Assembly (NCBI RefSeq): GCF_900115125.1
Contig: NZ_FOVJ01000002.1
Span: 310,001 to 374,000, forward strand
Direction of reading: 5' to 3'
Origin: Nitrosospira briensis
GTDB lineage: Bacteria; Pseudomonadota; Gammaproteobacteria; Burkholderiales; Nitrosomonadaceae
Length of the DNA: 64,000 nucleotides
The notes beneath the pieces are model-generated. The model was not told where the DNA came from and did not search any database. It saw only the letters and a list, made by a program, of their open reading frames with translations. Below, one piece after another: positions 9,898 to 35,202 of this stretch (positions are counted from its first letter, which is position 1; every line of letters starts with the position of its first letter). The translations under genes were made by a program, and so were the position numbers.

Positions 9898-10707
<810 letters not shown>

Positions 10708-10742
10708 TTATATTCCAATAACATAATCGAACCAGCAGCGCT

Positions 10743-11405
10743 CTATTCCTTCAACTGATCCGCTCCCTTATTGCCCCTGTCCCATGCCTGCGATGGCACC
10801 TGCCGCGGGCTCCTCACCGGCTCCGTCAAACCCGAAGTATCGCTTGCACCCGGGGATGGCGGGCTATCGGAATCCGGAACAACGCTTAAAGCCGGACCAC
10901 TCGTAGAAGCGGCGACATCGGCGGGAACCTGGAGAGTGTCCGCAGCCGGCACATCCGTTGCAGGAATATTGGCGGGAGCAGCAATGACTTCGGGACTGGG
11001 GAATTCGCCTGAAACCGGACTACGGGCCTGTTCGTTGCCTCGCGGCACAGCTGGCTCCTCGACTGCCTCATGCTGTGCAAAAACAAGCGGTGAAAAAGTG
11101 CCGTCGATACGCACCAGCTTGTCTTCTTCAAAAAATACGGTCAGGTTTCTTTGTTCGACCAGTTGCCCCTTCTGCTCAAGACGATATACGTAATCCCAGC
11201 GGTTTTCATGAAAAGCGTCGCTGATCATGGGCGAGCCCAGCGCGAAGCGAACCTGCGAGCGCGTCATGCCGGGCTTCAGTTTGTCTACCATTTCCTGGGT
11301 AATGACATTACCCTGCTGGACTTCGATCTTGTAGAGCAAAGATGGAACGGATGAGCATCCTGCGAGCAATAACAAAACGACCAACGTCAGTATTCTTGCG
11401 CGCAT
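10743..11405 (-). CDS. bamE: Outer-membrane assembly lipoprotein BamE/OmlA with long C-terminal extension
   Basis: The N-terminal 110 residues are BamE-like: a lipoprotein signal ending LLAGCSS (lipobox Cys near residue 15), then KLKPGMTRSQVRFALGSP and NRWDYVY, typical of the SmpA/OmlA fold. BamE is a periplasm-facing lipoprotein of the BAM complex that inserts outer-membrane beta-barrels. At about 220 residues it is roughly twice the usual length; the extra C terminus is rich in Pro, Ala, Ser and Thr and looks disordered. I chose the ATG at 11405 over an upstream TTG at 11426. It is divergent from fur, a common arrangement, and precedes dapB. Confidence 0.9.
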   Translation of the reverse strand: MRARILTLVVLLLLAGCSSVPSLLYKIEVQQGNVITQEMVDKLKPGMTRSQVRFALGSPMISDAFHENRWDYVYRLEQKGQLVEQRNLTVFFEEDKLVRIDGTFSPLVFAQHEAVEEPAVPRGNEQARSPVSGEFPSPEVIAAPANIPATDVPAADTLQVPADVAASTSGPALSVVPDSDSPPSPGASDTSGLTEPVRSPRQVPSQAWDRGNKGADQLKE

Positions 11406-24560: not shown

Positions 24561-25952
24561 ATGGACAAGAGGAACAATAGTGAGGTGGAGTCCGATGCCT
24601 TGGTACTATTCGGCGTGACCGGCGACCTTGCTTATAAGAAGATTTTTCCAGCGCTCTATGAGTTGGTAAAGAAGGAGTCTCTCAATATACCCGTGGTCGG
24701 GGTGGCGTCCTCCCCGTGGAGCCTCGAGCAACTGCGCGAAAGGGTAACGAAGGCGGTAAGCAAATCCGGGAAAGTTGATGACCAGAACGCACTTAACCAT
24801 CTTCTTTCCTTGCTTCAGTATGTCCGGGGCGATTACACCAGCGTTGACACATTCAAACTCCTTAAACAAGCACTGGCGGGAGCTGAACACCCGGTGCACT
24901 ATCTTGCCATTCCTCCGTTTCTTTTCGGAAACGTAATAAAGGGGTTGGGCGCGCTGGGGCTGGCGGCCGGGGCACGAGTCGTCGTTGAAAAGCCGTTTGG
25001 CCGCGACCTGGGCTCTGCACGTGAGCTCAATGCCATTGCGCGGTCGGTGTTCCCGGAGGAGTCGATTTTTCGTATCGACCACTTCCTCGGGAAAGAGTCG
25101 ATCATGAATATTTTGTATTTCCGGTTCGCCAATTCATTACTGGAACCGATCTGGAACAGAAACTATGTAGCCAGCGTACAGATCACGCTGGCCGAGGAAT
25201 TTGGAATCGAAGGACGCGGTGGATTCTATGAAACCGCAGGCTGTCTTCGCGATGTAATCCAGAACCACCTTTTGCAGATCGTTGCGCTACTTGCAATGGA
25301 ACCGCCCGCCTACAAGGGTCTGGGAACAGTTCAAAGCGAGAAAATCAATATTCTTCAGGCCTTGCGCCCCTCGACGCCGGCTGACCTGGTACGTGGCCAA
25401 TATGCCGGCTACCGGAACGAGACGGGCGTAGCCAAGGACTCCGATGTCGAAACTTTCTGCGCGTTACGGCTTTTTATCGATTCCTGGCGTTGGGAAGGGG
25501 TACCGTGGTATCTGCGTTCGGGCAAGTTTCTCGCTAAGACAGCCGCTGAGGTCATAGTCCAGTTAAAGCCGCCGCCACAAAGGCTTTTTGACGATTCGGC
25601 GGAAGAGGCGTGTCAGGCCAATTATCTGCGCTTCCGTCTTTCCCCCATCTCCGCCGTTGCTATTGCCGCACGCGTCAAGCGCCCCGGAAAGGAATTTGTC
25701 GGCATGCAGCGGGAACTTTGCCTGGTCGAGGAACACTTCGGGCGCGAATCGGCCTACGAAAGGCTTTTGCACGACGCCATGCTTGGCGATGAAACACTTT
25801 TTACCCGGAAAGAAGCGGTAGAAGCATCCTGGGCGGCTCTCGATCCTGTTCTTAAGTCATATCCCCCTGCCCTCCCTTATGAGCGAGGCAGTTGGGGGCC
25901 TGAGGCAGCGGATGCCCTGATCGCAACTGACGGCTGCTGGCACAATCCCTGA
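24561..25952 (+). CDS. zwf: Glucose-6-phosphate 1-dehydrogenase
   Basis: A 463-residue enzyme that oxidises glucose-6-phosphate to 6-phosphogluconolactone with NAD(P)+. The N-terminal nucleotide-binding motif is [22 protein letters not shown]; the active-site motif RIDHFLGKE sits near residue 172 (family RIDHYLGKE); EKPFGRDL is near residue 142. It is coupled to gnd. No lactonase gene (pgl) is present between them. A terminator-like hairpin follows 14 bases after its stop. Confidence 0.96.
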
Positions 25953-25966
25953 CAGGGAGTATGAAA

Positions 25967-25983
25967 ACGCGCGACGCGCGCGT
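25967..25983 (+). terminator. Terminator-like hairpin after zwf
   Basis: ACGCGCG, loop ACG, CGCGCGT is a perfect seven-pair stem followed by a T-rich stretch (ATTATTTCGTTTCTG). Placed directly after zwf, it probably ends the gnd-zwf transcript. The T run is broken, so strength is uncertain. Confidence 0.5.
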
Positions 25984-26034: not shown

Positions 26035-26439
26035 ATGGCTAATACTTCCGTTCCAGGAAATCTCGCAATCCGGTCTGCCTTTTTCGCCACCGTTGCCATT
26101 CTTTGCATGGCAGGCGCCGCCCATGCGGAAACCGGCGCGACCGGAAGCAGCAATGCGGCTCCGGCAGGGAAGACCGTCTCCGCAGACTCAAAGCAACCAT
26201 CAGGTTGGGGAGACGCCTCGGCATACCAGGGGAACTCATATACAAAGGAAAGCTCGTCCTCAGGTGAGACCACGGCGGGCTGGCAGCCTGCCGGGCAGGG
26301 AACTGGCTCATGCAGGCACTCCCACCCGGATCAGGAAGACTTTCTCTGTAAGCTTATCAGGATTTTTTATGGACCTGACTCGTCCGGACCGAACCGCGAT
26401 ATGGATAACAATATATCAGCCGGCGGTGCAGGTGGTTGA
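26035..26439 (+). CDS. Small secreted protein with Gly-rich C-terminal tail (paralog 1)
   Basis: Not a family I recognise. The 134 residues begin with a clear Sec signal peptide (basic-polar start, hydrophobic core SAFFATVAILCMAGAAHA, likely cleavage after residue 31). A low-complexity Ser/Gly/Ala-rich middle follows. The C-terminal 40 residues contain two Cys (93 and 105), a short amphipathic stretch CKLIRIFYGPDSSG, and the tail NRDMDNNISAGGAGG. The same tail ends the next gene. GGAAAGGAA precedes the ATG. It lies after the zwf terminator and is probably its own unit with its neighbour. A role as a secreted peptide, matrix or adhesion component, or substrate of a processing system is conceivable, but nothing shows which. 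Confidence 0.75.
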   Translation: MANTSVPGNLAIRSAFFATVAILCMAGAAHAETGATGSSNAAPAGKTVSADSKQPSGWGDASAYQGNSYTKESSSSGETTAGWQPAGQGTGSCRHSHPDQEDFLCKLIRIFYGPDSSGPNRDMDNNISAGGAGG

Positions 26440-26501
26440 GGTTGAGAGCTGACCTTCCGGGTTCAGTTGGTAATCGACGACCCCGTGAGCGAGAAATTAT
26501 T

Positions 26502-26933
26502 ATGAAGCACGTTCCCTTTCCCCGGAGATTTCCCGCTCGATCCTCGATATTTGCCGTGATGGCTCTCTGCATGGTGAATGTGTCGAACGCGCAGAGGGGT
26601 GAAGCAGATCATGGTAGCGGCACACCGTCCCGACAAAGCTCTCCTGCTGCAGAACAACTTCCGTTTCCGCAAGGAAACGGCACAGCGGATCAGAGAAGTT
26701 TGCACCCGGAACAGGGCGGACCCGCTCCCGGACCTGGTGCCCCTGGTCACGCCTCCGCCCCGGCCGATACCTCCACAAGCCAAAAAGCAGTTGGTGTGTG
26801 CCAACCCTACACGGGAGGGGAGGAAAGCCTGTGGCGAAGAGTCATAAGGTGGTTCTGCGGGCCCAGTTCGCCGCAGGGACCTGACCGTGACGTAGACACG
26901 AATATTTCGGCAGGGGGCGCCGGGGGAGGATGA
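26502..26933 (+). CDS. Small secreted protein with Gly-rich C-terminal tail (paralog 2)
   Basis: No recognised family. The 143 residues start at the ATG at 26502 (an in-frame upstream start lacks a signal peptide). A signal peptide (RSSIFAVMALCMVNVSNA, likely cleavage after residue 30) is followed by a Pro/Gly/Ser/Gln-rich linker. The C terminus has two Cys (100 and 119), LWRRVIRWFCGPSSPQGP and the tail DRDVDTNISAGGAGGG. This part aligns with paralog 1 (IRxF, GPxS, GPxRDxDxNISAGGAGG), while the linkers do not align. Of the nine codons for NISAGGAGG, eight differ at the third base between the two genes, so the tail is kept at protein level and is not a fresh duplication. Confidence 0.72.
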   Translation: MKHVPFPRRFPARSSIFAVMALCMVNVSNAQRGEADHGSGTPSRQSSPAAEQLPFPQGNGTADQRSLHPEQGGPAPGPGAPGHASAPADTSTSQKAVGVCQPYTGGEESLWRRVIRWFCGPSSPQGPDRDVDTNISAGGAGGG

Positions 26934-27495
26934 CGCACAGCTTTAACCTCCTGCGAGAAGCGGCTCGGGACGAACGCGGGGATGCAACTACTTTCGTCCA
27001 CGAACCATTCCTCACGGTGCCAAAAAAACACGATTGCCTTTGAGTCGATTCGACGTCCATCTCTCAGTTTAACCTCATCCCGATGTTGCCCTCGAACATC
27101 CATGCGTCCCGCTATGCTGAAATAATATTTAATGCGGCGACCAAAAACAAATAAAACCTCTTTGTCATAGTGGTTTCTATTGGTGTATATTTACGGGAAT
27201 CCGGACGAAAATAGTAACGGACCTGTGTCCTGATAAGCCAGAACTCAGGTAATGAGCCAATTCAGCCGGTTTTATTACCGGCAATGCTTCACCATTTCTT
27301 CACTTCCTCGCCACATTTTTTTAACGTACATTGTGCTATTTTTTCCAACGGCATATGACCGGTAATTGACCGGCAGTGACAGTTATTGGTCCAGCATAAT
27401 ACGGGAAACATGTAGCATATAGGGAACATGTAACCTGAGTATCATCAAAAACATAAAGTTTCAGCCTCGCCATCATCCGAAATCGGGAGAATTTC
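26934..27495. other. Intergenic region upstream of the porin, with short repeats
   Basis: About 560 AT-rich bases without a supported gene. It contains an inverted repeat GCCGGT-6-ACCGGC (near 27267), two TGACCGG copies 11-12 bases apart (27356-27374), and two direct copies GGGAAACATGTAGC (27403-27416) and GGGAACATGTAACC (27422-27435). These are candidate regulator sites for the porin. No clear -35/-10 pair at good spacing was found. Confidence 0.4.
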
Positions 27496-29064
27496 ATGAA
27501 TTTCAGAATTCCGTTAAGTTTTTTTTCTTGTTGTTTAATCTCAAGTTCCCTGTTTGCTCAAGCCATCGACCTGTATGTCGACACCAAAACCAAGCAGATT
27601 TACGCGGAACCGGGAGAAGGACGTGTTCGCATGGGTTCGTTCGAGCGGGTTCCCGATAAACCTGCAAAGCCGGCCGGTAATGAAAGCGCAGGTGAGCCTG
27701 TCGCGGCGGCGAAGGAAAAAAGCCCTGAAGGAGGCGTGCTACTGCGGGATGTTGCGGATAAGTCGAAGGTAGTGGGCCCGGAGGTAGGCGGATTTGGAGT
27801 CGCTAACTGGAAAGAGAAAGATCCATTTAAATTCAATTTGAACCCGGATGGGAGTCAATACCTTAAATTCGGCTTCTTGAATCAGGCCTGGCTGCGGTAT
27901 GAACAAACCAACCCGGGATCAACCGTATTGGGCAAGCCTGTGGACGACACGACGGATGTTGCGTTGCGTAGAACCCGTTTCGTACTGCAGGGGCAACTCA
28001 CCGACAGAGTATATTTCTATACTCAATACGGTATGAATAATTTCAACTTCCTGACGCAGAGCGCGGACAACAGGAAACTTCAGGCGTTCTTTCATGATGC
28101 GTTCGGCGAATTGCGGTTGACCCAGGGTCATCAGATGATCGTGGGCGGCGGCCTGGTCATGGCCAATGGCCTGTCCCGCTACAGCAGTCCCAGTGTCAGC
28201 ACGATCATGACCATGGATGTTCCGCTATTCGCACAGGCGACCGCCGACCGGACCGATATATTCAACAGAAAACTGAGCGTCTATTTAAGAGGCCAGATCG
28301 GCAATCTCAACTATCGCATTACCGCGAGCGATCCTTTCCCGATAAATACCGCTGGGCTGCCGCCAGAAGAGATTTCCCCAACAAACGCCCAATTTGCCAG
28401 GGTTGGTCACACAAAACAATACCAGGGATTTTTCATGTGGAACTTCTGGGACAAGGAACCGATGACCAACCCTTATATGCAGGGAACGTATCTGGGCAAG
28501 AAGTCGATACTGAATCTTGAGGCCGGCTTCATTACGCAAAAAAATGCCACCTGGACTGGAACCTCGGCGGCGGATGCTCAGTTTCACGACATGAATTTAT
28601 GGTCGGTGGCGGGTTATCTGGATGCGCCGGTAGACAAGGTAAAGGAAACGGCCATCAGCGCCTACCTTGGCTACTTCAATACGAATTACGGTCCGAATTA
28701 TCTTCGGACCAACGGCATCGGCCCAACTCCGGCTACTGGCGGTTCCACGCTTAATGGCGGGGGCAACGCGTTCCCGATGTTCGGTACAGGCGACATCTGG
28801 TACGGGCAGATAGGATATCTGCTGGCGAAAGATCTGCTTGGTGGAAACAATGGGCAACTGATGCCTTATTTTTCTTTTACGAGCGCAGATTTCCAGCGGT
28901 TGCATGATCAAATGAACGTCTTCAATGTGGGGATGAACTGGCTGCTGAAAGGACACAACAGCAAGGTTACCTTTGATTATCAGAACAGGCCCGTATTCAA
29001 CAATGACGGGTATAAAATTTCCAATAGAGGCCAATTCGTACTTCAGTATCAGGTTGCTTTCTGA
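27496..29064 (+). CDS. Outer-membrane porin (DcaP-like)
   Basis: A 522-residue protein with a signal peptide (cleavage near residue 22, SSLFAQA). A linker region of about 80 residues with Ala/Lys/Glu-rich sequence, possibly coiled, precedes the barrel. From residue 110 the sequence shows alternating amphipathic beta-strands (KFGFLNQAWLRYEQ; RTRFVLQGQLTDRVYFYTQYG) and ends in Phe (FVLQYQVAF), as outer-membrane barrels do. The overall plan resembles DcaP-type porins, which pass small organic acids or other solutes, but the substrate is unknown. The start has GGGAGAATTTC upstream. It stands alone between the Gly-tailed proteins and the oxidase cluster. Confidence 0.8.
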   Translation: MNFRIPLSFFSCCLISSSLFAQAIDLYVDTKTKQIYAEPGEGRVRMGSFERVPDKPAKPAGNESAGEPVAAAKEKSPEGGVLLRDVADKSKVVGPEVGGFGVANWKEKDPFKFNLNPDGSQYLKFGFLNQAWLRYEQTNPGSTVLGKPVDDTTDVALRRTRFVLQGQLTDRVYFYTQYGMNNFNFLTQSADNRKLQAFFHDAFGELRLTQGHQMIVGGGLVMANGLSRYSSPSVSTIMTMDVPLFAQATADRTDIFNRKLSVYLRGQIGNLNYRITASDPFPINTAGLPPEEISPTNAQFARVGHTKQYQGFFMWNFWDKEPMTNPYMQGTYLGKKSILNLEAGFITQKNATWTGTSAADAQFHDMNLWSVAGYLDAPVDKVKETAISAYLGYFNTNYGPNYLRTNGIGPTPATGGSTLNGGGNAFPMFGTGDIWYGQIGYLLAKDLLGGNNGQLMPYFSFTSADFQRLHDQMNVFNVGMNWLLKGHNSKVTFDYQNRPVFNNDGYKISNRGQFVLQYQVAF

Positions 29065-29472: not shown

Positions 29473-29769
29473 ATGATCGCGGCGAGTGTGACCGAATGTA
29501 ACGTTCCCGTCGCCATGCCGTCCTCGCGCCGAACTTCCTCAAACCGCCCCCGTGCCTGTAAGCGTAATATCGCAGAGCGTTTATTACATTCCGCTTCCCG
29601 GTATCGCAGACATTGCTGCGATCACTGCCGTATTCATGTAATCGCCGTAATTCCGTCTATCTCGGCTCGCAGCCCGCCACTTCTTACCAGAACGCTGCGC
29701 CGGAGGCGCGTAAAGCCCTTTCACGGGAGAATTGACGCCCTGTTTCCGTCGATCCCATCATCGATATGA
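29473..29769 (+). CDS. Possible small upstream reading frame coupled to coxB
   Basis: A 98-residue frame of unknown family. In its favour: GGGAGG six bases before the ATG, and a stop codon that overlaps the coxB ATG as ATGA, the arrangement of translational coupling; coxB itself has no obvious ribosome site. Against it: the product is rich in Arg, Ser and Pro with a Cys/His cluster (RHCCDHCRIH), the composition expected of a chance frame in GC-rich DNA, and it has no signal or membrane segment. It may be a real small protein, a leader whose translation delivers ribosomes to coxB, or chance. Confidence 0.35.
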   Translation: MIAASVTECNVPVAMPSSRRTSSNRPRACKRNIAERLLHSASRYRRHCCDHCRIHVIAVIPSISARSPPLLTRTLRRRRVKPFHGRIDALFPSIPSSI

Positions 29770-30824
29770 AGACTTTCAAGCCAGGGTTCTATCGCGGTCC
29801 CGACGCGCCATGCGCCGGACGCTTGATCGCGCTTGCCGTCGTGTCGACTGCCACTATGACCGGTACAGCGACCGCCGGGGAAGCACCCTTGAACTATTTT
29901 TTACACAGCCATGGTCCGGCATCCCGGCCAACGATGTATCTGGGATGGGTGCTCGCGGGATTGTCGGTCGCGGTCTGCCTCATCATCGCGCTGCTTTTGA
30001 TAACAGCCATGCTTCGTAAGCGTCCTGCGGCCGATTCACGCGTGATCGGGCAGGAGAGTGGAGGACTCCGGTGGATATATATCGGAACGGGAATCTCCAC
30101 CTGCATTCTGGCCGGGCTGGTCGTTTATTCGCTCATGGTCCTGAACAATGTCGCAAACCCGCCGACGGCCCCCGCCATTACGCTGACCGTTACAGGATAC
30201 GACTGGTGGTGGAAAATCGAGTATGACCATCCCGAGTCTGCAAAACGCTTTATCACCGCCAACGAAATTCATGTTCCCGTGGGTCAGCCTGTTCTTCTCA
30301 AATTGAAAAGTGCGGATGTGATTCACGCCTTCTGGGTGCCGAAACTTGCGGGCAAGACCCAATTGATCCCGGGTTTGATCAATCAGAAGTGGATTCAGGC
30401 CGATGAGGCCGGCATATATTCAGGTCAATGCAGCCAATTTTGCGGGGTAGGCCACGCTCACATGGGCTTTGAAGTGGTTGCGGAAAGCGCCAACGATTTT
30501 CAAAAATGGCAAGAAGAACAGCTTCGGACTGTTTCACCTTCCCCGGCGGGACGCATCAATGCGGGTTATAAATTATTCCTGGACCGCTGTGCCGGTTGTC
30601 ACACCATCCGGGGAACCGATGCGGCGGGCGAGCATGGCCCCGACCTGACCCACCTGAACTCCCGGCGTCGCCTTGCTGGCGGGCTTTTGGCCAATACGCC
30701 GGATGATCTGATGGACTGGATCACCCGTGCACAAAAGCACAAGCCGGGGTCGCGCATGCCAAGTATGGTCTTATCGGACGACGAGAGGTCCGTGCTGGCA
30801 TTATTCCTGTCAACACTGGATTAG
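29766..30824 (+). CDS. coxB: Cytochrome c oxidase subunit II with fused cytochrome c domain (caa3 type)
   Basis: A 352-residue electron-entry subunit. A signal-like N terminus is followed by two membrane segments (about 58-82 and 103-125). The periplasmic cupredoxin domain has CuA ligands His187 (DVIHAFWVP), Cys222 and Cys226 (QCSQFC), His230 and Met233. The residue between the CuA cysteines is Gln224 where many oxidases have Glu. A C-terminal cytochrome c domain follows with CAGCH (275-279) and a likely axial Met331 (RMPSM). Fusion of the cytochrome makes this caa3-like; it resembles what I remember of Bradyrhizobium CoxM. coxA begins six bases after its stop. Confidence 0.93.
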   Translation: MKTFKPGFYRGPDAPCAGRLIALAVVSTATMTGTATAGEAPLNYFLHSHGPASRPTMYLGWVLAGLSVAVCLIIALLLITAMLRKRPAADSRVIGQESGGLRWIYIGTGISTCILAGLVVYSLMVLNNVANPPTAPAITLTVTGYDWWWKIEYDHPESAKRFITANEIHVPVGQPVLLKLKSADVIHAFWVPKLAGKTQLIPGLINQKWIQADEAGIYSGQCSQFCGVGHAHMGFEVVAESANDFQKWQEEQLRTVSPSPAGRINAGYKLFLDRCAGCHTIRGTDAAGEHGPDLTHLNSRRRLAGGLLANTPDDLMDWITRAQKHKPGSRMPSMVLSDDERSVLALFLSTLD

Positions 30825-30830
30825 AAAGCC

Positions 30831-32825
30831 ATGGCTATCGCTGACATCACGCAGCGTCCCATCAATGATGATCTTGACCGTGTGCCGGACTTTGGGCGCG
30901 CCCCAAGCGGTTCCGATATCGAAGCAAACCTTACCGGAATATGGGAAACAGCGCCTGGATGGAGAGGCTGGCTTTCGACGGTCGATCATAAAACAATCGG
31001 TCTGCGCTACATCGTTACCGCTTTTCTTTTCCTGCTGATAGGTGGTATCGAGGCGCTGATAATGCGCGTACAGCTTGCCGGCCCGGATCTGACCTTGCTG
31101 ACTCCGGAACAATACAGCCAGCTTTTCACAATGCACGGCGTGACAATGATCTTTCTGTACGCGCTGCCGATATTGTCGGGATTTTCCAATTATCTCTGGC
31201 CGCTATTGCTCGGCTCGCGAGATATGGCTTTTCCTCGCCTCAATGCGCTTTCCTACTGGATCTTCCTGTTCGCCGGCATCTTCATGTATGTCAGCTTTCC
31301 TCTCGGGCAGGCGCCGAACGCAGGCTGGTTCAACTATGTCCCTTTTTCGGGCCCGATATATAACACCGGCCCCAACATCGATGTATTTGCACTCGGTATG
31401 GTGTTGCTGGGGATCTCCACAACGGTGGGATCAGTCAATTTCGTTGTCACCCTGTTCAGGATGCGAGCACCCGGCATGACCATCAACCGCGTGCCGATTC
31501 TCGTCTGGGGCACGCTTACCGCCTCTGTTGCCAATCTATTGGCAATACCCGCAATCAGTCTCGCGTTTTTCCTGTTGTGGCTGGACCGGCAGTTCGGCAC
31601 TCATTTTTTCGATGTGGCCAACGACGGTAAGCCGTTGCTGTGGCAACACCTGTTCTGGATCTTCGGCCACCCCTGGGTTTACGCCATTGTGCTCCCGGCG
31701 ATGGGCATCGTCTCCGACGCGCTGCCGACGTTTTGCCGCCGGCCGCTGGTCGGTTATACCGCGGTGGCGCTTGCGACCATGGCGACCATGCTGATCGGAT
31801 TCGAAGTATGGATCCATCACATGTTTGCCACCGGCTTGCCCGCGGTGGCCTTGTCGATCTTTGGCGCCGCCAGCATGGTGATTTCAATCCCGAGCGCTGT
31901 TGCCGTGTTTGCCTGGATCGCAACAATCTGGCTGGGGAGGCCGGTGTTCAAAACGCCGTTTTTGTTCTTCGCCGGCTTTGTCATTCTGTTCGTGATCGGC
32001 GGCATGTCCGGCGTGATGACGGCAGCGGTGCCGCTTGACTGGCAGCTCAACGATACCTACTTCATCGTTGCGCATCTGCATTACGTCTTGCTTGGCATCA
32101 ACGTATTCCCTGTCGTGGGTGGCATTTATTACTGGTTCCCCAAATTTACCGGTCGCATGATGAGCGAAAGAATAGGCAAATGGAGTTTCTGGGTCATGTT
32201 CACCGGCTTTAACGTTGGATTCTTCCCCATGCATCTGGCCGGCCTGCTGGGCATGCCGCGGCGCATCTACACATACTCCTCCCGCATGGGATGGGATGGC
32301 GTCAACATGATCACATCCGTCGGGTCTTTCCTGTTCGCCCTTGGCGTGCTGATCTTTCTGGTCAACGTCGTCATCAGCCTCAAACGCGGGGCGCTGGCAG
32401 GCCCCAATCCCTGGGACGCGGCCACGCTGGAGTGGACCACGTCTTCACCGCCACCGGCTTACAATTTTGCCGTTATTCCCACTGTCGCCAGCCGCCATCC
32501 GTTATGGGAGGACAGGCTGGAAGAGGATAGCGGGGACAACAGGGCGCGCTCCAATTTCACTGAGGGGTATTTGCTGACGAAGGGCCGGGAAACCATTGGA
32601 ACTTCGCCCATCGATGCAAAGCCGGTGGCCATCCTCAAGATGCCCGACGATTCCTATACGCCTTTCTTTTCCGGATTGTTCCTATCCCTGCTGTTTGCCG
32701 GCCTGTTGCTGCACTGGTGGAGTTTTACAGCCGGGATGGCCATAGCGGGCGGAATAACGCTAATCATTTGGATGTGGCCGCAAAAAGCGCTCGTTCAACG
32801 CATCGCCGCCGGAAGAGGCCCATGA
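30831..32825 (+). CDS. coxA: Heme-copper oxidase subunit I with noncanonical proton-channel residues
   Basis: A 664-residue catalytic subunit with about 12-14 membrane helices. The metal ligands are intact: His102 and His417 for the low-spin heme, His415 for the high-spin heme, and His280, His329 and His330 for CuB. Tyr284, the cross-linking Tyr, and Asp131 at the D-channel mouth are present. However, the usual HPEVY reads HPWVY (Trp282 for the gating Glu) and the usual SIPTGVKVF reads SIPSAVAVF (Ala358 for the K-channel Lys). The type A2 YS motif before the His is also missing (it reads FG). The C terminus carries one or two extra hydrophobic segments. It should reduce O2, possibly NO, but pumping is in doubt. 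It overlaps coxC by four bases. Confidence 0.93.
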   Translation: MAIADITQRPINDDLDRVPDFGRAPSGSDIEANLTGIWETAPGWRGWLSTVDHKTIGLRYIVTAFLFLLIGGIEALIMRVQLAGPDLTLLTPEQYSQLFTMHGVTMIFLYALPILSGFSNYLWPLLLGSRDMAFPRLNALSYWIFLFAGIFMYVSFPLGQAPNAGWFNYVPFSGPIYNTGPNIDVFALGMVLLGISTTVGSVNFVVTLFRMRAPGMTINRVPILVWGTLTASVANLLAIPAISLAFFLLWLDRQFGTHFFDVANDGKPLLWQHLFWIFGHPWVYAIVLPAMGIVSDALPTFCRRPLVGYTAVALATMATMLIGFEVWIHHMFATGLPAVALSIFGAASMVISIPSAVAVFAWIATIWLGRPVFKTPFLFFAGFVILFVIGGMSGVMTAAVPLDWQLNDTYFIVAHLHYVLLGINVFPVVGGIYYWFPKFTGRMMSERIGKWSFWVMFTGFNVGFFPMHLAGLLGMPRRIYTYSSRMGWDGVNMITSVGSFLFALGVLIFLVNVVISLKRGALAGPNPWDAATLEWTTSSPPPAYNFAVIPTVASRHPLWEDRLEEDSGDNRARSNFTEGYLLTKGRETIGTSPIDAKPVAILKMPDDSYTPFFSGLFLSLLFAGLLLHWWSFTAGMAIAGGITLIIWMWPQKALVQRIAAGRGP

Positions 32826-33430
32826 GTGAGGCAGGTCAGCTCAGCCAGCGTCAGCCATTGCCGGTGGGAAGCGCAGGCAAGCTCTCCACAGGCTGGTGGG
32901 GGATTCTGGCATTGATCGTAACAGAAGCGTCCCTGTTCGGCTATTTGTTGTTCGCATACTTCTATCTGGCGTCTCAAACCGAGCAGAGCTGGCCACCGGA
33001 GGGTTTACCCGCCCTGCTTGTGCCCACTGTCAATACGGCGATTCTACTCGCCAGCAGCGCTGGCGTATGGGCAGCAGAACGCTACGTCCGGCAAGGGCGG
33101 AGACAGTCGAGTATTGCCGGGCTGGTAGCGGCAATCGCGCTGGGCAGCAGCTTCGTCGTGATTCAACTCCTCGAATGGAGGGACAAATCCTACGGCATCA
33201 CTTCTGACTTGTATGGATCGCTCTACTTCACGATTACAGGATTTCATATGTGTCACGTTGTCATTGGCCTGGGCATTCTGATGCTCCTGCTGGTCTGGAC
33301 ATTACTCGGCTACTTCGATGGCAGGCGCCACGCTGCAATCACTATCGGCGGCGCCTATTGGCACTTTGTGGACATTGTCTGGCTGTTCGTTTTCTCGGCA
33401 TTGTATGTATCTCCTTATCTCATCAAATAA
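32822..33430 (+). CDS. coxC: Cytochrome c oxidase subunit III
   Basis: A 202-residue membrane protein with five predicted helices, the short bacterial form of subunit III. GWWGILALIVTEASLFGYLLF near residue 22 and ITGFHMCHVVIGLGILML near residue 140 match the family, the latter with the conserved Gly-x-H-x2-H. The C-terminal YWHFVDIVWLFVFSALYV is diagnostic. The ATG overlaps the coxA stop (ATGA). It supports the stability of subunit I. Confidence 0.93.
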   Translation: MSEAGQLSQRQPLPVGSAGKLSTGWWGILALIVTEASLFGYLLFAYFYLASQTEQSWPPEGLPALLVPTVNTAILLASSAGVWAAERYVRQGRRQSSIAGLVAAIALGSSFVVIQLLEWRDKSYGITSDLYGSLYFTITGFHMCHVVIGLGILMLLLVWTLLGYFDGRRHAAITIGGAYWHFVDIVWLFVFSALYVSPYLIK

Positions 33431-33442
33431 GCCTTACCGGAA

Positions 33443-33886
33443 ATGAGCACCAGGCAAAATACCGTCAGGCAGCAAGCCTCCTACCATGACTCGCTGAGCC
33501 GGACATTGTTGGGCATATTCGGCGCACCCGTGGCGTGGGTGATCCAGATGTCGTTGATCGAACCCATTGCAGCCTATGCATGCTACCCGCGCCAGGTTCC
33601 GCTTTCCGCTCCGCTCTGGGCCGAATTGCCTTTCATGCTGGCTATAATCAGTCTGGCTTGCCTGGCAGGAGGTTTATTCTCTGGATATATTGCATTGGAT
33701 TTCTGGCGGCGAACAGGCCGTTCGTTGACACGGGCCCTGCAAGAAACGCAGGTCATCGAAGTCGATGAGGGGCAGACGCGATTTCTGGCAATGTTGGGGA
33801 TAATGTCGAGCTTCCTGTTTATTGTTGCGATTTTATTCACCAGCTGCGCGGTCCTTTTAGTGTCGCCATGTAGCGCCTGGACTTGA
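33443..33886 (+). CDS. Small membrane protein of the oxidase operon
   Basis: A 147-residue protein with three likely membrane segments (about residues 20-45, 62-88 and 112-140). I do not recognise the family with certainty. It lies 12 bases after coxC and its stop overlaps the region before the cytochrome c gene, so it belongs to the operon. By position it may be an accessory subunit, like the fourth gene (coxP) of the Bradyrhizobium coxMNOP cluster as I recall it. It carries three Cys residues (CYP near 48; a pair near 132-142) but no heme motif. Confidence 0.75.
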   Translation: MSTRQNTVRQQASYHDSLSRTLLGIFGAPVAWVIQMSLIEPIAAYACYPRQVPLSAPLWAELPFMLAIISLACLAGGLFSGYIALDFWRRTGRSLTRALQETQVIEVDEGQTRFLAMLGIMSSFLFIVAILFTSCAVLLVSPCSAWT

Positions 33887-33891
33887 CAGGG

Positions 33892-35202
33892 ATGCGACCA
33901 GCAGTGGCGTTCATGGGTTGGTTTACCCGTATGGTCAGGAAAATAATAGTCTATACATGGTTAGTCATCCCGGCGGTCGCCGCTGCCGCGCAGGCACCCG
34001 ATCCCGCAATGATCGCGCGCGGGGCGTACCTGGCGAAAGCTGCCGACTGCATGGGTTGCCACACTGCGGGGCCCGATCATCCGCCGTTTGCCGGCGGTCT
34101 GCCGATCAACTCGCCATTCGGAACCATTTACTCAACCAACATCACGCCTGATCAGGCCACAGGCATCGGCCACTACAGCCTTGATGACTTTAGCCGCGCA
34201 CTTCGCGACGGCATTGCCAAAGGCGCCAGGAGGCTTTATCCGGCGATGCCCTATGCCTCGTTCACGGCAATGTCGGACGACGACGTCGAGGCGTTATACG
34301 CCTATTTCATGGACGAGGTTAAGCCGGTCAACCATCGGCCGCCCCAGACCAGCTTGCCGTTCCCTTTCAATCAGCGCTGGACCCTGCGATTCTGGGACAT
34401 CGCTTTCGTGAACCACGAGCGCTTCAGGCCGCGCGCTGATCGCGACGCGCAGTGGAATCGCGGCGCTTATCTCGTGCAAGCCCTGGGCCACTGCGGCGCT
34501 TGTCATACTCCCCGCGGACTTGGCTTCCAGGAAAAGGGGTATACCGAGTCATCACCCGACTACTTGACCGGGGCGGTAATAGAAAACTGGTTTGCTCCTG
34601 ATCTGACCGGAAACCCCGCATCCGGTTTAGGACGATGGTTCGAAGCAGAAATCGCCAAATTCCTTGAAACAGGTCATGGCGGGCAAACCGTCGCGTTTGG
34701 CAGCATGGTCACGGTTATTGAAAAGAGCACGCAACATTTGCGGAAAGAAGATCTGAACGCTATTGCCCGTTATCTCAAAACGCTTCCACGCCGGGACGGA
34801 AAAACATCGTTTGAGCCACTCATGAGGAAAGTCGGCACGGCGCCGGCCGGGAACATCATCGGCCCATTCGAGCGGCCCGGCGCAGGTCTGTATCGGGGAT
34901 TTTGCGCCAAATGCCACCGACCTGACGGTGCAGGCAAGCTGCCGAAGCTGCCCCGTCTTGCCGGCAGTCCGGTTGTTCTTTCAGAAAACGCCACTTCTCT
35001 CATTCGGCTCATGCTGGAGGGAGGCAAAGGTCCGCTGACAAAAAACGGCCCGAAGCCCGAGAAGATGCCAGGTTATGCAAAAAAATTCTCTGACCGCGAG
35101 ATCGCCGACGTGCTTACCTTTATTCGCAACAGTTGGGGCAATAAGGCACCCGCGGTCACGCCGCGCGACGTATCAAGACTAAGGAAAGCATTGGCCGAGT
35201 GA
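33892..35202 (+). CDS. Triheme cytochrome c (alcohol-dehydrogenase cytochrome-subunit type)
   Basis: About 436 residues with an N-terminal export signal (VYTWLVIPAVAAAAQA). Three c-type heme motifs are spread through three cytochrome domains: CMGCH near residue 53, CGACH near 204 and CAKCH near 342. The layout matches the membrane-attached cytochrome subunit of quinohemoprotein dehydrogenases (AdhB/gluconate dehydrogenase type), with GTIYSTNITPD and GIGHYSLDDF typical. No dehydrogenase gene is next to it; in an oxidase operon it more likely carries electrons to the CuA/cytochrome c subunit. Several in-frame starts exist (TTG 33883, ATG 33892, 33913, 33931); the exact one is uncertain. Confidence 0.85.
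   Translation: MRPAVAFMGWFTRMVRKIIVYTWLVIPAVAAAAQAPDPAMIARGAYLAKAADCMGCHTAGPDHPPFAGGLPINSPFGTIYSTNITPDQATGIGHYSLDDFSRALRDGIAKGARRLYPAMPYASFTAMSDDDVEALYAYFMDEVKPVNHRPPQTSLPFPFNQRWTLRFWDIAFVNHERFRPRADRDAQWNRGAYLVQALGHCGACHTPRGLGFQEKGYTESSPDYLTGAVIENWFAPDLTGNPASGLGRWFEAEIAKFLETGHGGQTVAFGSMVTVIEKSTQHLRKEDLNAIARYLKTLPRRDGKTSFEPLMRKVGTAPAGNIIGPFERPGAGLYRGFCAKCHRPDGAGKLPKLPRLAGSPVVLSENATSLIRLMLEGGKGPLTKNGPKPEKMPGYAKKFSDREIADVLTFIRNSWGNKAPAVTPRDVSRLRKALAE

Follow-up and report, generated by a model that had tools for sequence, protein, structure and literature searches.

Two small secreted proteins, A and B, are encoded in tandem in Nitrosospira briensis. They share a C-terminal tail that is conserved at the protein level across the genus, and their genes are linked to that of an outer-membrane porin located downstream. 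On the basis of gene context, A and B are tentatively read as periplasmic partners of this ExtI-like porin that would dock to it by a helix-plus-tail module. A probability of about 0.42 is given to this reading. The window analyzed is the 64,000-nucleotide stretch from position 310,001 to 374,000, forward strand, of contig NZ_FOVJ01000002.1 (assembly GCF_900115125.1), and all coordinates refer to the window unless another locus is named.

Gene Organization and Protein Architecture

Gene A (26035..26439, + strand) encodes a protein of 134 amino acids, and gene B (26502..26933, + strand) encodes a paralogue of 143 amino acids, both taken from the list of open reading frames and the sequence. The length of B is counted from its ATG, as the mechanical ORF from the TTG at position 26436 is longer. 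Both N termini read by eye as Sec-type signal peptides, ending in AAHA/E in A and VSNA/Q in B. The sequence-only reading had described these two ORFs as adjacent genes for small proteins with signal peptides, which agrees with what was found, and the pair is conserved over the genus. The zwf gene (24561-25952) lies upstream of A, and the porin gene (27496..29064, + strand, 522 amino acids) lies downstream of B. The gap between zwf and A contains a terminator-like hairpin (25967..25983, + strand) identified by consensus match only; four such sites were found in the stretch where 1.6 are expected. The sequence AGGAAAGGA lies upstream of the ATG of A. The names pgm, leuA, TPR protein, carbonic anhydrase, and those of the transporter parts used here were assigned by eye.

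Protein A is composed of a signal peptide, a disordered linker, a C-x11-C pair, a short helix, and the tail GPNRDMDNNISAGGAGG. Protein B is composed of a signal peptide, a Pro/Gly/Ala-rich linker, a short helix, and the tail GPDRDVDTNISAGGAGGG. The residues P, S, G, A, Q, T, and N make up 77% of the linker in both window proteins and 50-86% in the remaining rows of the alignment, leaving out the decayed row of genome G001, which has no linker. The C-terminal module is about 46 residues long in both proteins and falls within the last 48 residues, as placed by alignment A1 (26293..26436 in A and 26787..26930 in B, both + strand). AlphaFold2, run on A with 38 aligned sequences, returned the signal helix and one short helix at residues 103-112, with the rest unstructured, at low confidence (mean pLDDT 53). 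The amphipathicity of the module helix barely exceeds that of shuffled sequences (z of -0.1 to 2.2). A and B are probably Sec-exported and disordered, as judged from these sequence features.

The sequence-only reading had also placed two cysteines in the common C-terminal module. The tail is indeed common to both proteins, and the cysteines are not. All 19 A rows have the C-x11-C pair. In B, the Cys positions are scattered, and the mature part lacks Cys in 5 of 20 rows. The conserved pair is thus confined to A and does not belong to the common A/B module.

Conservation of the C-Terminal Tail

The tail follows the consensus GPN-x-D-[VM]-D-x-NISAGGAGG in most rows. In the module alignment of 39 rows, only five columns (P, N, G, G, and A) show no variation at all. 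All 20 B rows end with VDTNISAGGA followed by GGG (12 rows), AGG (7 rows), or GG (1 row, G017). Sorted by ending, GGAGG is present in 18 A rows and one B row, GGAGGG in 12 B rows, GGAAGG in 7 B rows, and GGAGD in the decayed A of G001.

In the window, eight of the nine NISAGGAGG codons differ between A and B at the third base, with AAT alone shared, just as had been reported from the sequence. Across the genus, most synonymous codons are in use at the Gly and Ala positions of the tail while the residues remain unchanged. Pooled pN/pS values (Nei-Gojobori, over 11 close genome pairs for A and 12 for B, which are not independent of one another) were computed by region. For A, these are 0.46 for the signal peptide, 0.35 for the linker, 0.04 for the helix, and 0.10 for the tail. 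For B, the corresponding values are 0.43, 0.54, 0.36, and 0.10. The module is therefore coding and under purifying selection, and the tail (0.10 in both genes, against 0.35-0.54 for the faster-evolving linkers) is held as protein. In A, both helix and tail are held; in B, it is chiefly the tail. The frame analysis thus bears out the earlier claims of a selected tail on otherwise freely evolving proteins.

A degenerate DNA pattern for the tail gave 38 matches in the 23 genus genomes, and every one is A or B; the decayed A of G001 falls outside this pattern. Reversed-pattern controls gave 0 matches in the same genomes. Tail-bearing proteins therefore number at most two per genome, namely A and B, which is expected for a single partner and not for a general system. 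A general sorting, processing, or export tag, proposed in the sequence-only reading, is contradicted by this count. In PEP-CTERM and GlyGly-CTERM signals, a hydrophobic segment and basic C-terminal residues come after the motif, and many proteins per genome carry such a signal. A and B resemble these proteins in being secreted and divergent except for a conserved C-terminal tail. They differ in that nothing hydrophobic or basic follows the tail in 39 of 39 rows, there being neither a transmembrane segment nor a basic end, and in that no genome among the 23 has more than two tail proteins. No protease or maturase was recognized by eye beside the pair. Among the earlier suggestions, a binding epitope fits best, and an export signal serving this single barrel is kept as an alternative.

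Occurrence of A and B

A is present in 19 of the 23 genus genomes (18 apparently intact and one decayed, G001), and B is present in 20. Two genomes, G016 and G018, have neither. G017 has B without A, and in G002 a contig edge precedes the position of A, with B present. The remnants in G001 consist of an A with an in-frame stop, a B recognizable over its first 48 residues, and C-terminal pieces only of the porin.

A scan of contigs from one genome per species gave 94 pattern matches, of which 14 encode relatives. Each of the 14 comes from a genome named Nitrosospira or Nitrosovibrio, and the 9-residue pattern used would overlook tails that have diverged. When 81 genomes were searched with B at an E limit of 1, 42 gave a match, 21 of them outside the genus. 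The best match outside the genus (E 0.0026) contains an internal stop, and the one outside match that was inspected (G041) is out of frame and overlaps another gene. Profile A1, searched against 349 genomes of the order, matched 16 genomes besides the window's own (G000) at chance-level E values of 0.02-0.09. In the searches made, relatives of A and B are confined to Nitrosospira and Nitrosovibrio, a group of ammonia oxidizers from soil, so the homologues called for by the sequence-only reading were found across this genus only.

Pfam gave no match to A or B up to E 10. NCBIfam gave a single match, to A at E 0.089, its 12.1 bits lying far below the cut-off of 400. A PDB sequence search with the module returned chance-level matches (E 1.1 and 1.4), and four PHROGs families were each matched by 1 or 2 of the 39 members at E 0.11 or weaker. 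A and B are a genus-wide family for which no named family was found in Pfam, NCBIfam, PHROGs, or the PDB, in line with the earlier statement that no named family has this tail. A phage origin was considered and rejected, with 15 pattern matches and 0 relatives among viral contigs, and PHROGs matches at chance level.

An extract of a study of N. multiformis terms its porin a general diffusion porin, lists Q2Y9X6 and Q2Y9X8 as highly expressed orphans, and does not mention A or B in the part covered (PMC5960693). The tail string is absent from the open-licence papers searched, supplementary files excluded, and A and B were not found in a wider search over titles and the first parts of abstracts of open-licence papers. 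Q2Y9X6 and Q2Y9X8 are presumably not A and B, as a rough guess from accession order speaks against it.

The Downstream Porin

The porin is composed, from N to C terminus, of a motif IDLYVDTKTKQIYAEPGEGRVRMGSFE, a variable linker, and a barrel. It has no Pfam match. Its match to the NCBIfam family NF040900 (ExtI) scores 53.8 bits (E 1.3e-14), below the cut-off of 150 bits, and the same family is matched by 19 of 19 porin orthologues scanned (the G014 orthologue is not among them). The Phosphate-selective porin O/P family (PF07396) matches the G006 orthologue at 13.7 bits, below the gathering threshold of 20.9, and leaves the window porin unmatched. The porin is thus weakly placed nearest ExtI by family searches, below the family cut-off in the single score seen. 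A PDB sequence search with the porin was at chance level (E 0.53), and its structure model is unusable (pLDDT 31). Searches of another 299 genomes of the order (E 1e-15) and of 397 genomes of the phylum (E 1e-8) revealed no related barrel. The porin profile matched 6 of 350 genomes of the class at 1e-5, its own genome included; of the other five, G775 alone is matched over most of the barrel, and four are matched by the first part only.

In Geobacter, an ExtI mutant shows reduced selenite and tellurite reduction, ExtI weakly resembles phosphate-selective porins, and ExtJ, a 104-amino-acid protein of unknown function, is encoded beside ExtI in the extHIJKL locus, as given in an extract of PMC5877670. 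The window resembles this locus in the NF040900 match of the porin and in the presence of small proteins beside it. It differs in the low score of the porin, in that no rhodanese gene was recognized by eye beside it, and in that the cytochrome c-like ORF of the window (33883-35202) falls within the cox cluster.

The N-terminal motif, [IL][DET]LY[VIM]D..T.Q.Y..PG, is at 27565-27645, before the linker and barrel. It is also present in other porins of the same genome and of three other genera (L090, L091, L133, L134, and L135). Pfam was run on one such porin (G990), and there the motif falls outside the region matched by Porin_O_P. This sequence pattern may be a periplasmic docking motif in its own right. 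A short direct repeat, GGGAA(A)CATGTA, was seen by eye upstream of the porin start (27403-27432) and is possibly a regulator site; it is shorter than the minimum of 14 used in the repeat search.

Five genus genomes encode a further porin that shares 63-74% identity with the AB-linked one and has neither A nor B beside it. These paralogues adjoin a cluster read by eye as ABC transporter (importer) genes; the second ExtI-like porin follows this cluster at L138 (591-7232) and at the equivalent loci L137, L139, L140, and L141. By eye, the cluster contains a binding protein, a permease, an ATPase, and a HEAT-repeat protein, joined at three of the five loci by a small protein. For G005, a Pfam search identifies NMT1 domains (binding protein) and a NosL-like end just under the cut-off, a faint hint at copper.

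The paralogues show that this type of barrel does not need A or B in general. The 20 AB-linked porins are separated from the five paralogues by four positions only (M/I, S/A, R/Q, and Y/F), so that no binding site stands out. In a porin tree, four paralogues cluster and the AB-linked porins form two groups, while the G008 paralogue and a very long outgroup branch join at unsupported forks. The tree leaves the relation of AB-linked porins to the paralogues unsettled.

Linkage of A and B to the Porin

An intact porin of the window type is present in 20 of the 23 genus genomes. B accompanies it in all 20, and A and B together do so in 18. In the three genomes where an intact porin is missing (G001, G016, and G018), intact copies of A and B are missing as well. 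The sequence-only reading had looked to a co-occurring protease, transporter, or maturase; a co-occurring partner was found, and it is a porin rather than a maturase. The porin is the next recognized gene after B in 19 of the 20 genomes, with 391-1255 nucleotides between the stop of B and the IDL motif of the porin. With a gap of 0.4-1.2 kb, this is not a tight operon. In G014, the porin is found roughly 10 kb further downstream, past the cox cluster. Transposase-like ORFs were seen by eye near the porin in G014 (L136, 7673-8317) and G021 (L033 reversed, 10419-11075), and may explain the displaced G014 porin.

Because a single deletion can remove neighbors, joint loss is weak evidence alone. 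Neighboring genes were lost as well in G016 and G018: zwf is directly followed by leuA in G016, and a carbonic anhydrase and a coxB fragment precede leuA in G018. On a leuA tree, in which 7 of 20 inner branches are weak, the losses need three changes, two of which are forced by well-supported branches. The persistence of the unit amid changed surroundings is stronger evidence than joint loss. In G015 and G022, the A-B-porin unit is located away from pgm, zwf, and leuA. The coxB gene found downstream in the window has no close copy in 9 of the 20 module-bearing genomes; these nine include G002, whose draft assembly is 80% complete.

The window contains a cytochrome oxidase cluster after the porin (29766-35202), with subunit II fused to cytochrome c. 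Close copies of coxB are present in only 11 of the 23 genus genomes, and a fragment is kept in G018. With a close copy missing from 9 of 20 module-bearing genomes, a link of A and B to this cluster was rejected. A carbonic anhydrase with a PEP-CTERM end, identified by eye, is found close to the module at 16 of 20 genus loci (L033-L052), in two copies at several of them. A strict link to this gene was likewise rejected, as it is absent near the module in the window, and G018 keeps it without A, B, or the porin.

Proposed Role and Alternatives

An exclusive C-terminal element on two freer-evolving exported proteins beside one barrel suggests a docking element for that barrel. On this reading, A and B would form a long-standing tandem pair of small proteins that act in the periplasm and serve the downstream porin exclusively. 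Both would be exported by Sec, and their disordered linkers would be free to drift. The binding part would be the C-terminal module, with a short amphipathic helix and a stiffly conserved tail. We infer that this module docks at the periplasmic face or mouth of the porin or in the barrel lumen, and that A and B together may affect transport by gating, plugging, stabilizing, or helping to assemble the barrel. The Cys pair of A, if it forms a disulfide, would lock the helix in place in that partner. RcsF, described as a small protein with a part held inside the lumen of an outer-membrane barrel, serves as a working analogy only; RcsF is a lipoprotein, whereas the signal peptides of A and B look ordinary by eye. 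A bolder version would be a new kind of two-key channel, in which the near-identical tails of the two disordered paralogues enter one barrel and either gate it or pass through it in secretion; this appears distinctly unlikely. We know of no other system for which such a tail code has been described.

The main specific rival of docking is export through the barrel, in which A and B would be cargo carried to the cell surface by the neighboring barrel and the tail would be the address. An extract of PMC5557850 describes FapF as a barrel with a periplasmic N-terminal part and a linker that exports FapB, FapC, and FapE, which are unfolded in the periplasm. The window offers a similar arrangement of small, Sec-exported, disordered proteins next to a barrel that is preceded by a periplasmic N-terminal part and a linker, and a tail pattern limited to A and B would suit an address. 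The comparison with FapF is by description only, and the window barrel is nearest ExtI in family searches. Its paralogues adjoin an apparent ABC importer cluster (with Pfam support for the binding protein limited to G005). Fap systems also comprise subunits with amyloid repeats and the protease FapD; no protease was recognized by eye beside the window barrel, and A and B have no amyloid-like repeats by eye. Cargo export is unlikely on this balance. It is only somewhat unlikely that the module binds another part of the envelope (peptidoglycan, lipopolysaccharide, or metal), with shared regulation or hitch-hiking behind the porin link. The helix and Cys of B have drifted while the tail is kept, and contact of A and B with the porin is the part that we infer rather than observe. 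Against a target elsewhere stands the A-B-porin order, which persists despite relocation.

Two further explanations concern cleavage or glycosylation of the C-terminal part. Peptide-hormone precursors have a signal peptide, a variable spacer, and an invariant C terminus, and A and B match this layout, with linkers at pN/pS 0.35-0.54 and the tail at 0.10. The C-terminal piece would then be cut off as a secreted messenger peptide, the linker being a throw-away spacer. This is improbable given that no processing enzyme or receptor gene was recognized by eye beside the pair, that the helix of A upstream of the tail is even more conserved (0.04), and that the tail is near-identical across the genus. 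The bacterial N-glycosylation sequon of PglB-type enzymes is D/E-x-N-x-S/T. It is present in 38 of 39 rows (the A of G011 lacks the Ser), and the residue before the Asn varies in A rows and is always Thr in B, as would suit an N-glycan on the conserved Asn. STT3 (PF02516) was found in 0 of 23 genus genomes by a search that matched 4 of 14 control genomes, all archaeal, with no PglB-bearing bacterium among the positives. N-glycosylation is rejected as having next to no likelihood, unless an unrelated enzyme is involved.

Implications

Ammonia oxidizers of this group must import substrates and metals across the outer membrane. To our knowledge, channel control in these ammonia oxidizers has been little studied. 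If the docking reading is true, a dedicated tail-bearing pair would offer a handle on one outer-membrane channel, and a short C-terminal tail could serve a single barrel instead of a sorting system. If the link is one of gene order only, A and B remain a genus-wide protein family for which no name was found.
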